From the NCBI GenBank assembly GCA_035578905.1, contig JAQJVL010000047.1, forward strand, positions 1,748,111 to 1,812,110: a stretch of 64,000 bases of DNA, in the 5' to 3' direction. Source of the DNA: Stictocephala bisonia (Eukaryota > Arthropoda > Insecta > Hemiptera > Membracidae). This document shows positions 1,431 to 61,850 of the stretch, piece after piece (the first letter of the stretch is position 1; the number at the start of each line of letters is the position of its first letter). The notes beneath the pieces are model-generated. The model searched no databases. It saw nothing but the letters and a program-made list of their open reading frames with translations, and was not told where the DNA came from. A program made the translations under genes and the position numbers.

Positions 1431-1638
1431 TATACACGTACGGTAAACTAACCCACCCACCTACCCATAAACGTACGGTGGTATTAACCCACCCGCCCAC
1501 CCATACACGTACGGTGATACTACGTACGGTAAACTAACCCACCCACCTACCCATACACGTAAGGTGGTAGTAACCCACCCGCCCACCCATACACGTACGG
1601 TGGTACTAACCCACCCATACACGTATGGTGGTACTAAC
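1431..1638 (-). repeat. 36-bp G4 minisatellite, array A
   Basis: Five to six units of the form CCCACCYRCCCA-TACACGTACGGTGGTAN-TAA are seen. The C-rich strand is on top, so the G-rich unit reads on minus. Two units carry CCCACCCGCCCACCC, the complement of a G-quadruplex motif with single-base loops. The array stops exactly where PLE tail sequence resumes. Confidence 0.85.
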
Positions 1639-2034
1639 GTTCAATACACTCATGACATCATCTAACCAGAATCCTACACCACCTGCACCTACAACAATTA
1701 AACACCCCCATGAGTCTCCGTTCCCGTACCTGAGTCATCGCATATTTTGTGATCTCGGAGCGTACGTCCCTGACCTCGTCAGTCTGTGTATGGTTGTTGT
1801 GAAGTGTAGTGTGTATGTTTGTCTTGTCCCCGTGTTTTATCACGTTGGAGGGAACTTCGTAGACACTGCATTTGGATTATCGTCCTCACTTCGTGCCTGG
1901 GACGTCTAGACGCCATCGTCACTAAGACTTCATCACTTTTTTGTAATATTTGATTATTGTATTGTTTTATTCCTAATAGTTGTTGTCTTTTCAGGTTAAA
2001 ATGTAATTTTAATAGTAGTCTCAGTCCTTCCGAG
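1639..2034 (+). repeat. PLE 3' tail, first copy
   Basis: Bases from GTTCAATACACTCATG onward are repeated with few differences from 2074. The reading TTIKHP continues the PLE C-terminus in the second copy. The copy ends where the second one begins, at an ATATAGTGGG junction. Tandem or partial-tandem arrangement is common in PLEs. Confidence 0.8.
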
Positions 2035-2042
2035 TCATATAT

Positions 2043-2900
2043 AGTGGGTTCCTTTTCTTAAAAACACACTTGATAAAAAGTTCAATACACTCATGACATC
2101 ATCTAACCAAAATCCTACACCACCTGCACCTACAACAATTAAACACCCCATGAGTCTCCGTCCCCGTACCTGAATCACCGCATATTTGGCGATCTCGGAG
2201 CGTACGTCCCTGACCTCATCAGTCTGTGTACAGTTGTTGTGAAGTGTAGTGTGTATGTTTGTCTTGTCCCCGTGTTTTATCACCTTGGAGGGAACTTCGT
2301 AGACACTGCATTTGGATTGTATCATCCTCACTTCGTGTCTGGGACGTCTAGATGCCATCGTCACTGCAGGTCGTAAGACTTCATCACTTTTTTGTAATAT
2401 TTGATTATTGTATTGTTTTATTCCTAATAATTGTTGTCTTTTCAGGTTAAAATGTAATTTTAATAGTAGTCTCAGTCCTTCCGAGTATATATATATATAT
2501 AATTTTTTGTGCATGTTGAATGTTATTTTAAATTAATAGTGTTTTTCAGGTACCATATATTTATGATTAGTTAATGTAATCTTATTTCAGTCTGATTTGA
2601 ATATTAATTTTATTGTGTTTTGACATTTTTCATTGATATCGTGAACTTTACAGCGCCTAATTGGCTATATTAATTTAACCCTGTTAATATTTTTTATATT
2701 TAGTAGAAGTCCATTTTGTTGTACTCCATTCTAGGATTTAGGTTAAAATGTAGATAATTATTAAAGTAGAGAAGTTTATTAGTTTAAGAACGTAGTTTTA
2801 TAACATGTTTGTGTAGATGTAATTTAGTTTTTAGCACTTAAAAAAGGTTGGGTTTTACCAAATCGAAACGTCGTGATTGTTATTTTTCACGTAATGATGG
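2043..2900 (+). mobile_element. PLE 3' tail, second copy with terminal hairpin motif
   Basis: The copy begins inside the C-terminal coding end (GTTCCTTTTCTTAAAAAC, compare 1127), continues through the duplicated tail to about 2490, and then through AT-rich 3' sequence. Near 2849-2880 lies TTGGGTTTTACCAA followed by TCGAAACGTCG, a hairpin plus CGAAACG typical of PLE 3' ends. The end at about 2900 is approximate. Confidence 0.6.
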
Positions 2901-3202
2901 CAAATGTCCAACTACCTTTGTCTCCCTCATCTGATACTCCATCATTAACAAATTTCAAAAACAAAGTAGATACTGGTCTAATACATTAAATAAATTTAAA
3001 ATGACTAAAACCAATTACTGTCCAATCAGCTGACCTCACACATCACTCGTGTTATATGCCCACATTTGACAGCTTTATATGCTCAATTGGACATTTAAAT
3101 GACGGGGATTCTCAGTTGGCAGAGAGTATGATTGATCTGAGTTAACTTTCTCGTATTTTATTGTTCAAATAACATGATAAATTCCCATGTTCAGTAATAT
3201 GT
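2901..3202. other. AT-rich stretch with nothing recognised
   Basis: No coding, RNA or repeat structure was seen between the PLE tail and the microsatellite. Confidence 0.5.
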
Positions 3203-3294
3203 TATATATATATATATATATATATATATATATATATATATATATATATATATATATATATATATATATATATGTGTGTGTGTGTGTGTGTGTG
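3203..3294. repeat. (TA)n-(TG)n compound microsatellite
   Basis: About 35 TA units are followed by about 11 TG units. Confidence 0.98.
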
Positions 3295-3435
3295 TATGAA
3301 CAAACATTTACTAAGAAATTGGTTGTGTATTTTGTAAAATTATTGGTTTATAAATTGAAAGTGCATTAATTGAATTTTTTATTTCAATAATGCAAGTATT
3401 TTCTGTAGTGTACTAAAATTCCCACATCATAAATA

Positions 3436-3832
3436 CAGGGTGTCCAGCCTCATCTGTGCCATTTTTTACTGTTTTCGAGTTCAAAATAAGCAATATATGC
3501 AATATAACAGATGTCCTATCTCGATCCATGTTCTTCTGTCTCTGAGCCTATATTATTTTAACGAAAACTTAAATATCTGAAAAACAGTCGAGTTACAATT
3601 CTGCAATTCTGTATGAAAGTAATATTTATATGACACTTTTTGATACATGACAACTTTTTTAAACAAGTATACTTTTTTTAATTTGTAATTTATTCAGTCA
3701 CCTTTTATTGGATATTTGACATGCTATAAGTTCAACTATGTTTCAATGAAACTTGTAAATATGAAATTCGTAATAACAACAGGGATGTGATTGGTTTCCA
3801 CAGACTGAATAAGAGCTTATACATCCACCCTG
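3436..3832. mobile_element. Candidate small TIR element with TA target duplication
   Basis: The block starts CAGGGTGTCC and ends CACCCTG, and each end is flanked outward by TA. The 397-bp interior is AT-rich and non-coding. This suits a non-autonomous Tc1/mariner-like element, but the visible inverted repeat is only seven bases, so chance is possible. Confidence 0.35.
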
Positions 3833-4189
3833 TAATAAGCATTAAAATATATAATAAACTTGTCACTTTAGTTTAAAAATATCAACCCAAAGCTTTCTTG
3901 AAAAATTTTTATTGCTGGCTACTTAGAAACCCATTTTATTCAATTTACGAATTTTTTAGTTTTGATTTAGATGAATTTTAGTACTATATATGATTAGCTC
4001 ATGCTTACCCCATATAACAGAGGTGCTTAGTGAAAATTTACTGAGGCCCCTTCCACTGGGTAGCCTGAAGGGTAATCGAAACAAAAGATAAGCATTGCAA
4101 AAAGTTAGTTTCCCATATTTACAAATATTTTAAAGATATTTTGCTAACCCTATTTAATAGTTTAATATGTTATGTACTTATTTATGTTA

Positions 4190-4290
4190 GATTAAATTAT
4201 GTTCAGAATGACTTGGCAATATTTAGCTCCAATTATGACTTTGTCAACGCTGTAAAGTTTGATGGCAATAAAGGATTATTATTATTATGT
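4190..4290 (+). mobile_element. LINE 3' end with ATT-repeat tail
   Basis: The sequence GACTTTGTCAACGCTG...GGCAATAAAGG is followed by (ATT)4, a pattern usual for jockey/CR1-type LINE tails in arthropods. The 3' end of the LINE at 58.9 kb has comparable GACTTTGTCA and GGCAAATAAAAG elements. No coding part is attached. The tract 3833-4189 shows nothing recognisable except a weak CCTGAAGGGTAATCGAAAC near 4062, which resembles a PLE tail hairpin. Confidence 0.45.
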
Positions 4291-60590: not shown

Positions 60591-60656
60591 CTAACAAAAT
60601 TACTCCCTGCATTATCACACATAACAAAATGAGTTTTAACACTTGTGGTTTTACGC

Positions 60657-60766
60657 ACAGTGGTACTGAACTACCTGCCCTCCCATACACGTACAGTAGT
60701 ACTTACCTACCCGCCCTCCCATACACACACAGTGGTACTACCCCCCAAACACACAGTGGTACCATA
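60657..60766 (-). repeat. 36-bp minisatellite, array I left part
   Basis: Two to three units ACCTGCCCTCCCATACACGT then ACAGTAGTACTTACC; C runs are partly kept. Confidence 0.88.
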
Positions 60767-60770
60767 CACA

Positions 60771-60906
60771 CACGCACACACACACACACACACACACACA
60801 CACACACACACACACACACACACACACACACACACACACACACACACACACACACACACACACACACACACACACACACACACACACACACACACACACA
60901 CACACA
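60771..60906. repeat. (CA)n microsatellite
   Basis: About 65 uninterrupted CA units, in the middle of minisatellite array I. The unit's CATACACGTACAG may have seeded it. Confidence 0.99.
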
Positions 60907-61170
60907 TACAGTGGTATTGACCCACCCGCCCATCCATACACGTACAGTGGTATTGATCCACCCGCTCACCCATACACGTACAGTGGTATTGACCCACCCG
61001 CCCACCCATACACGTACGGTGTTATTGACCCACCCGCCCATCCATTCACGTATGATGGTATGCACCCACCCGCCCGCCCATAAACGTACAGTGGTATTCA
61101 GGAAAACTAGGAAATTCACAGATGTACTACAGAAACTAGGCTACCCATACACGTACAATGGTAGCCTAGT
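60907..61170 (-). repeat. 36-bp G4 minisatellite, array I middle part
   Basis: Five units in C-rich orientation, one with CCCACCCGCCCACCC at 60993-61007, and one displaced unit (CCCATACACGTACAATGGTA) near 61143. Confidence 0.92.
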
Positions 61171-61177
61171 CAATACA

Positions 61178-61337
61178 ACTGATCAATACCACTGTACGTG
61201 TATGGGTGGGTGGGTGGGTCAGTACCACCGTACGTGTATGGGTGGGCGGGTGGGTCAATACCATCGTACGTGTATGGGCGGGCGGGTGGGTCAGTACCAC
61301 TGTACGTGTATGGGTGGGCGGGTGGGTCAGTACCACG
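61178..61337 (+). repeat. 36-bp G4 minisatellite, array I right part (inverted)
   Basis: Four units in G-rich orientation, with GGGTGGGTGGGTGGGT at 61204-61219 and GGGTGGGCGGGTGGGT from 61240. With the previous array it forms a large inverted repeat. Confidence 0.93.
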
Positions 61338-61558
61338 TAACTATAATTACACGTATGTATAATTTTTTCACGTATGTAATGACGTATGTAAAAGTTCTCT
61401 GGTAATGACATGGCAGGGCACTTTGACGTTCTTATACCTTGCGAACAACCTTATGTACCAAATTATTTTCAAAACAGTCTACATACCTCAAAATCTTATG
61501 CCTCAACATTAAAATCCCAACCTGGTTTTTCTGAATCTATGCCCAACGACAATAATGT

Positions 61559-61850
61559 CCATTGTATTGACCCACCCACCTATACACGCACTGTGTTATT
61601 CACCTACCCACCCAACTATACAAGTACAGTGGTACTGACCCACCCGCCCACTCCTACACGTACAGTGGTGATGACCGCCCGCCCACCCAAACACGTACAG
61701 TGGTATTGACCCACCCACCCACCTACACACATACAGTGGTATTGACCCACCCACCCACCCACACACGTACAGTGGTATTGACCCACCCACCCACCCATAC
61801 ACGTACAGTAGTATTGACCCGCCCGCCCACCCTTATATGTACAGTAGTAG
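61559..61850 (-). repeat. 36-bp G4 minisatellite, array J
   Basis: Eight units in C-rich orientation, several with CCCACCCACCCACCC. It ends against the LINE B sequence with a TAGTAGTAGTATGGTGG stretch. Confidence 0.93.

Follow-up and report, generated by a model that had tools for sequence, protein, structure and literature searches.

How a short G-rich tandem repeat can reach a multitude of unlinked places in one genome is the question raised by a 64,000-nucleotide stretch of the membracid Stictocephala bisonia (assembly GCA_035578905.1, contig JAQJVL010000047.1, positions 1,748,111 to 1,812,110; the whole stretch is referred to as the window), along which short arrays of a minisatellite unit of about 36 bp are scattered in both orientations. 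The spread of transposon-free satellite repeats to new places is an open question. With a probability of roughly 40%, the arrays described here arrive as repair patches, made by copying into breaks on the G-rich strand and halted at the edge of a G-quadruplex (G4).

The core ACCACTGTACGTGTATGGGTGGG at up to 6 mismatches had 103 matches on both strands of the window, against 0.075 on average and at most 1 for 200 shuffled cores, which agrees with the preliminary description, made from the letters alone, in recognizing one unit family in both orientations. The main arrays of the window were also listed independently by Tandem Repeats Finder. The fixed 36-bp unit assumed at that stage held only in part: 36 bases is the commonest spacing (297), whereas the unit itself is modular, composed of TACCACTGTACGTGTAT + (GGGY)n + YAR in 430 sampled units, with additional spacings of 28 (56) and 32 (22) bases, the three differing by a single four-base module. 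Four GGGY modules generate a single-base-loop G4 motif, which was intact in 112 of the 430 units and present at least once in 44 of 60 arrays; with four G tracts separated by short loops, the repeat is a predicted G4-forming minisatellite.

A scan of the 1.68-Gb assembly with the 24-base core at up to 2 mismatches returned 99,169 forward and 95,259 reverse matches (194,428 in total), while a control core with the reversed pattern gave none, and confinement of the unit to the neighbourhood of the window was thereby rejected. The density that had been called unusual is indeed so, since the window holds 40.6 cores per 100 kb compared with 11.6 per 100 kb for the genome, a 3.5-fold excess. Ten further stretches, taken at a fixed coordinate (1,000,001 of C2-C10 and C12), together contained 7 arrays over 97 kb; from the genome core count and the array and core density in the sampled stretches, the genome may, very roughly, hold 30,000-120,000 arrays. 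Core identity was 0.81 between arrays and 0.87 within them, so that arrays at different loci are nearly as alike as units of one array, indicating a common source and little local homogenisation, in line with the dispersal proposed at first. In total, 141 non-redundant minisatellites were collected from 21 sequences, namely the window and 20 genome stretches, ten of the 21 having been chosen for holding the unit, and the G-rich unit was the sole widely common family, its 48 arrays being spread over 13 of these sequences; the next most widespread minisatellite occurred in 3 of the 21. The family is thus shown to be a dispersed minisatellite, with short arrays at many unlinked places. Beyond this genome, a query of five translated frames recovered 5 proteins among 2,526 candidates from a set of 5.8 billion, on contigs of 0.9-1.8 kb; by eye they resemble the unit in diverged form, read in more than one frame, and the family or a sister family therefore seems to exist in other datasets too. 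The exact 24-base core had no match in viral contigs, a set that may omit records of this genome.

The ends of the arrays are non-random. End statistics were drawn from 60 arrays of the window, the 20 stretches and 10 of 30 short loci, with arrays of a single core hit dropped. The left end, defined as the 5' end of the G-rich strand, lay around YAR|TACC, just past the G run, in 44 of the 60 arrays, which started in phases 31-36, 1 or 2 when boundaries were set by local alignment; the same pipeline placed 26% of 1,474 simulated uniform-end arrays in this band (nominal p 3e-14). An alignment-free check gave a similar picture, as 28 of 40 lone left ends had no G run within 14 bases upstream, compared with 296 of 334 internal units that had one. 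Before TACC an excess of Y, A and R was found, with position -4 at background and some G excess at -5 to -9, the latter to be expected from the 12 lone left ends that do carry a G run. Two positions were enriched among right ends, one immediately ahead of the G run (phases 16-17, with 13 of 60 arrays and 7% of simulated ones) and one immediately behind it (phase 33, with 8 of 60 and 2%). Given this clustering of ends at the border of the G run, the run may matter for how copies end.

Opposite arrays lying close together are mostly head-to-head. Among opposite neighbours within 60 bp, 9 pairs were head-to-head and 1 was tail-to-tail (p 0.02). The hinges take forms such as GGTATTGATACC and GGTAYTRATACC, and 3 of the 9 are exactly GGTA-TTGA/TTAA-TACC, with the four-base form TTGA/TTAA, while the others vary. 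Fused telomeres would be tail-to-tail, and a telomere-fusion origin was rejected because the close-range pairs are mostly head-to-head. Snap-back self-copying was likewise discarded as the source of the pairs, as the order of units across the 9 hinges was mirrored no better than in random pairings.

That arrays enter existing DNA is shown, on sequence comparison, by nested cases. The plus-strand array at 56790-56944 (4 units, three G4 motifs) sits between two parts of a repeat that runs uninterrupted at 5312-6132 on the minus strand, a related copy of about 73% identity that represents the empty site; by eye the junction carries no target-site duplication, with a partial unit on one side and ~30 extra bases in the filled copy. 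At 59144-63076 on the minus strand, a long interspersed nuclear element (LINE) with endonuclease and reverse-transcriptase pieces is split by a composite of ~1.3 kb, made up of the last four arrays of the window, a CA run and other DNA. In 8 of 11 relatives compared at the protein level, the two LINE parts overlap or are separated by no more than 6 residues, and the gap of 22-23 residues in the remaining 3 arises where the alignment stopped earlier. The closest relatives of this LINE protein show 59% and 55% identity, and the nearest named ones are from the leafhopper Graphocephala atropunctata (52% and 47%), followed by Nilaparvata lugens (37%), which by themselves point to a probable auchenorrhynchan host.

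Three further contexts are of the same kind. The stretch 1156-1638, which holds the array at 1432-1633 and a 16-bp minisatellite of another kind, is missing, as judged by eye, at 2045-2493, where the same host segment is repeated. At locus L039 an array lies within an unrelated 27-bp minisatellite, and at L044 an array of ~80 bp occupies the junction of a 909-bp tandem duplication that is 99.3% identical, a pattern that break repair can leave. Insertion sites showed no preference in G+C content, with 0.336 for 58 flanks and 0.335 for 240 background pieces. A tandem duplication of 1636-2043 and 2077-2493 (93% identical) adjoins the first array of the window, its second copy being without 1156-1638.

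In the repair-patch reading, a 3' end at a chromosome break or stalled fork would pair with the G-rich strand of an array already in place, or with its RNA, and copy it, and the new strand would be C-rich because the G-rich strand is the template. Copying would pass some G runs and stop at the edge of a folded G4, and joining of the stopped end to the other side of the break would leave a lone array, fixed at one end (GGGT|YAR-TACC) and variable at the other. Should both broken ends copy an array, the joining of two fixed ends would give a head-to-head pair, and later local slippage would change how many units and GGGY modules an array has. The fixed end is accordingly inferred to mark a synthesis stop at a quadruplex on the G-rich template. 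The closest observed parallel for it is provided by the deletions induced by G4 in C. elegans: at two sites, 84% and 80% of their junctions are described as falling on the first G or no more than 3 bp from it (PMC4654259). For the insertion step, the closest parallel is the insertion of telomere-like arrays at breaks (PMC8537989).

Several observations weigh against repair patching. The phase bands were picked after the phases had been seen, the simulated arrays varied in substitutions while their GGGY number was held, and for 20 of the 60 left ends a further unit lies no more than 150 bp away, so that head-to-head hinges are included; for these reasons the p-values are nominal. The 12 lone left ends with an upstream G run (of 40) depart from the rule, the fixed ends spread across several bases past the last G, and right ends outside the two enriched positions are scattered and were placed only in part. 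When opposite neighbours up to 400 bp apart are counted, head-to-head pairs number 9 and tail-to-tail pairs 3 (p 0.15), and the absent mirror order across the hinges brings no support. G positions are conserved no better than other positions of the 430 units, no correlation links array size to G4 content (rho 0.06, p 0.64), and present-day G4 motifs are missing from the two largest arrays (51 and 46 units), although present motifs may differ from those at insertion; a role of G4 as driver of array growth was rejected on the missing correlation. Finally, within the window a single empty site has both flanks and lacks the array alone, at 73% identity, and both the LINE insertion and the 1156-1638 stretch contain non-array DNA too.

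One alternative is carriage, in which the arrays would lie, or have lain, inside or at the ends of a transposon (Helitron/Helentron, foldback element or miniature inverted-repeat transposable element) that spread them and was lost or differs per copy. Such carriage is documented for Helitrons of Crassostrea (PMC10048060) and for the foldback element Tetris (PMC4079207), and the head-to-head arrays of S. bisonia look foldback-like. The flanks point the other way. Once flanks of less than 100 bases (1 of 120) and those holding a further unit (25 of 119) had been removed, and with pairs from the same sequence uncounted, the 94 unit-free flanks yielded one boundary-adjacent match between loci, a 12-bp CATACTA-like simple repeat, and twelve weaker matches were off the boundary in one or both of the flanks compared. 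The arrays are thus shown to lack recognisable common flanking DNA in the sample, in which a single transposon family as carrier found no support, and no Helitron/Helentron termini with a flanking element were found around the arrays.

Duplicated target sites gave no more support to a carrier. LINE retroposition leaves a poly(A) tail and a target-site duplication of 5-20 bp, and the duplication of foldback elements (FB, Galileo, Tetris) measures 7-9 bp. No target-site duplication of at least 8 bp was present at the ends of 50 blocks, a result in which 2-4 bp are beyond judging and 5-7 bp are not excluded, and direct repeats of at least 6 bp occurred in 11 of the 50 compared with 15% of mismatched pairs; no poly(A) tail was seen by eye in the array flanks. 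Inverted repeats do surround arrays at L033, L035, L036 and L044, yet their arms are unmatched between loci and inverted repeats without any array are frequent as well, on which ground they were rejected as regular hosts. Common terminal inverted repeats of the foldback type were not found, most arrays being of single orientation, and no single fixed right end exists. With boundary flanks unshared, long duplications missing and hosts unrelated, the earlier suggestion of a transposon-carried satellite is unsupported in this sample, and carriage as a whole is considered unlikely.

The BLAST scan for inverted repeats missed a 251-bp repeat at 41429-41953, and its window part is therefore incomplete; this repeat is near-perfect, with 251-nt arms of 99% identity and a 23-nt loop. 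At L036, inverted arms of 237 bp (99% identical) at 3629-5718 enclose arrays with inverted pairs ~82-93% alike.

Alternatively, the unit might contain a site (YAR|TACC) at which a transposase, nuclease or recombinase cuts or joins, by which any run of units would be movable with one end defined by the site. An enzyme acting at TACC would also fit the fixed end, as a fixed start at TACC and a hinge at the same place, GGTATTGATACC, would be equally expected, whereas the less fixed other end and the lack of a target-site duplication of at least 8 bp speak against it, leaving this reading, too, on the improbable side. Extrachromosomal circles have been proposed for dispersed satellites, and re-integration of array circles around the genome would account for a common source, array-only inserts and unshared flanks; circles opened anywhere predict uniform end phases, however, and the left ends are strongly non-uniform, which makes this origin quite unlikely. 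In-place growth from many chance seeds, or survival of relics of one very old repeat, could appeal to decayed single matches and a widely varying unit number but is very improbable, given a 24-base core that matches 194,428 times in its own order and never in reverse, and arrays nested in a LINE reading frame with uninterrupted relatives and in an unrelated minisatellite.

Among known systems, the satellitome of Crassostrea gigas and the euchromatic copies of Drosophila 1.688 are highly dispersed short-array satellites, and both resemble the present family in few-unit arrays scattered along the genome from a common source; as described, theirs are often tied to Helitrons or a heterochromatic parent, whereas here one 12-bp boundary match was found in 94 flanks and the ends are phase-biased (PMC10048060). 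Interstitial telomeric repeats at double-strand breaks (TERC-ITS) share unrelated loci, a G-rich strand and the lack of a transposon carrier, and differ in that a 36-bp unit takes the place of the telomere hexamer and copies are far more numerous here (PMC8537989). Human CEB1 is a tandem unit with a G4-forming motif, treated as an array changing in place (PMC5491262, PMC2673046, PMC3486850), unlike the present family, which occupies very many sites with sizes independent of G4 content. The foldback elements Tetris and Galileo have inverted arrays of tandem units (PMC4079207, PMC3573991) but, unlike in those elements, the arrays here have no constant outer termini or long target-site duplication and are mostly of single orientation. 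Class 2 templated sequence insertions are patches of distant sequence at breaks, which the arrays would be by inference; theirs come from distant regions seemingly at random (PMC5110952), while a single genome-wide family would be the donor here.

The family provides a clear example of a minisatellite dispersed genome-wide, with a candidate end rule. With ~194,000 near-exact cores, no common flank in the sample and a biased copy end, it offers a large natural record of insertion junctions, and if the end rule holds, G4 stalling would be tied to the spread of repeats, beyond instability alone. A wider proposal, which we regard as unlikely, is that a G-rich minisatellite may act as a selfish repair patch, a template preferred for mending breaks genome-wide, possibly via RNA, at tens of thousands of sites without a transposon, its copies tending to end where a polymerase or reverse transcriptase meets a quadruplex.

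Within the window, 9 of the 11 loci listed initially are clear. The other two, near 4858 and 48925, each have 7 mismatches to the 24-base core, a tolerance that gave 20 shuffled cores an average of 6.0 matches across the 21 sequences scanned; the first is a doubtful decayed single unit at chance level on its own (4850-4897, minus strand) and the second a doubtful decayed unit (48920-48985, plus strand). On the minus strand, 1432-1633 is a G-rich 36-bp array of 5 units with its G4 on that strand, and 7726-7815 a decayed array of 2 units without G4. The plus strand carries arrays of 2 units at 27222-27309, 3 strongly decayed units at 29711-29941, 9 units with two G4 motifs at 38226-38525, and 46 units at 42193-44355, the largest of the window, with a higher-order period of 108 and no G4. 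In the last cluster, a minus-strand array at 60653-60787 has 2 clear units and runs into a CA repeat, and a head-to-head pair follows, with a left arm of 7 units at 60884-61163 (minus, the outermost unit reaching the CA repeat), a hinge at 61164-61186 and a right arm of 4 units with four G4 motifs at 61187-61336 (plus), so that the single stretch given before as 60907-61337 comprises plus-strand units from 61187 onward. The final array, at 61564-61849 on the minus strand, has 8 units.

A search for G4 motifs with loops of 1-7 agreed with the first quadruplex map, which had them clear at 1431, 38222, 56777, 60907-61337 and 61559 and lost at 7708 and 42192. Motifs lie on the minus strand at ~1502, ~1588, 61007, 61079 and 61760-61832 and elsewhere at 38243, 38351, 56807-56879 and 61204-61312, and the 7708 and 42192 arrays have none. 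Two G4 motifs outside the minisatellite family occur at ~18733 and ~19630 on the minus strand. Rfam gave no match in the window at gathering score.

Other repeats of the window include two A+T-rich 31-bp minisatellites in foldback-like inverted pairs, at 11774-11950/12062-12241 and 26075-26148/26219-26289, and the segment 26249-26362, which includes the second, matches 55596-55707 at 91%. A related 30-31-bp family was found in 3 of the 21 sequences, L031 included, and its unit was seen by eye in the arms at L036. A 77-bp satellite spans 51025-55576 with 59 copies and 92% matches. The open reading frame at 371-745 resembles a Penelope-type reverse transcriptase, with no Pfam hit, and that at 23797-24165 has a GIY-YIG domain.

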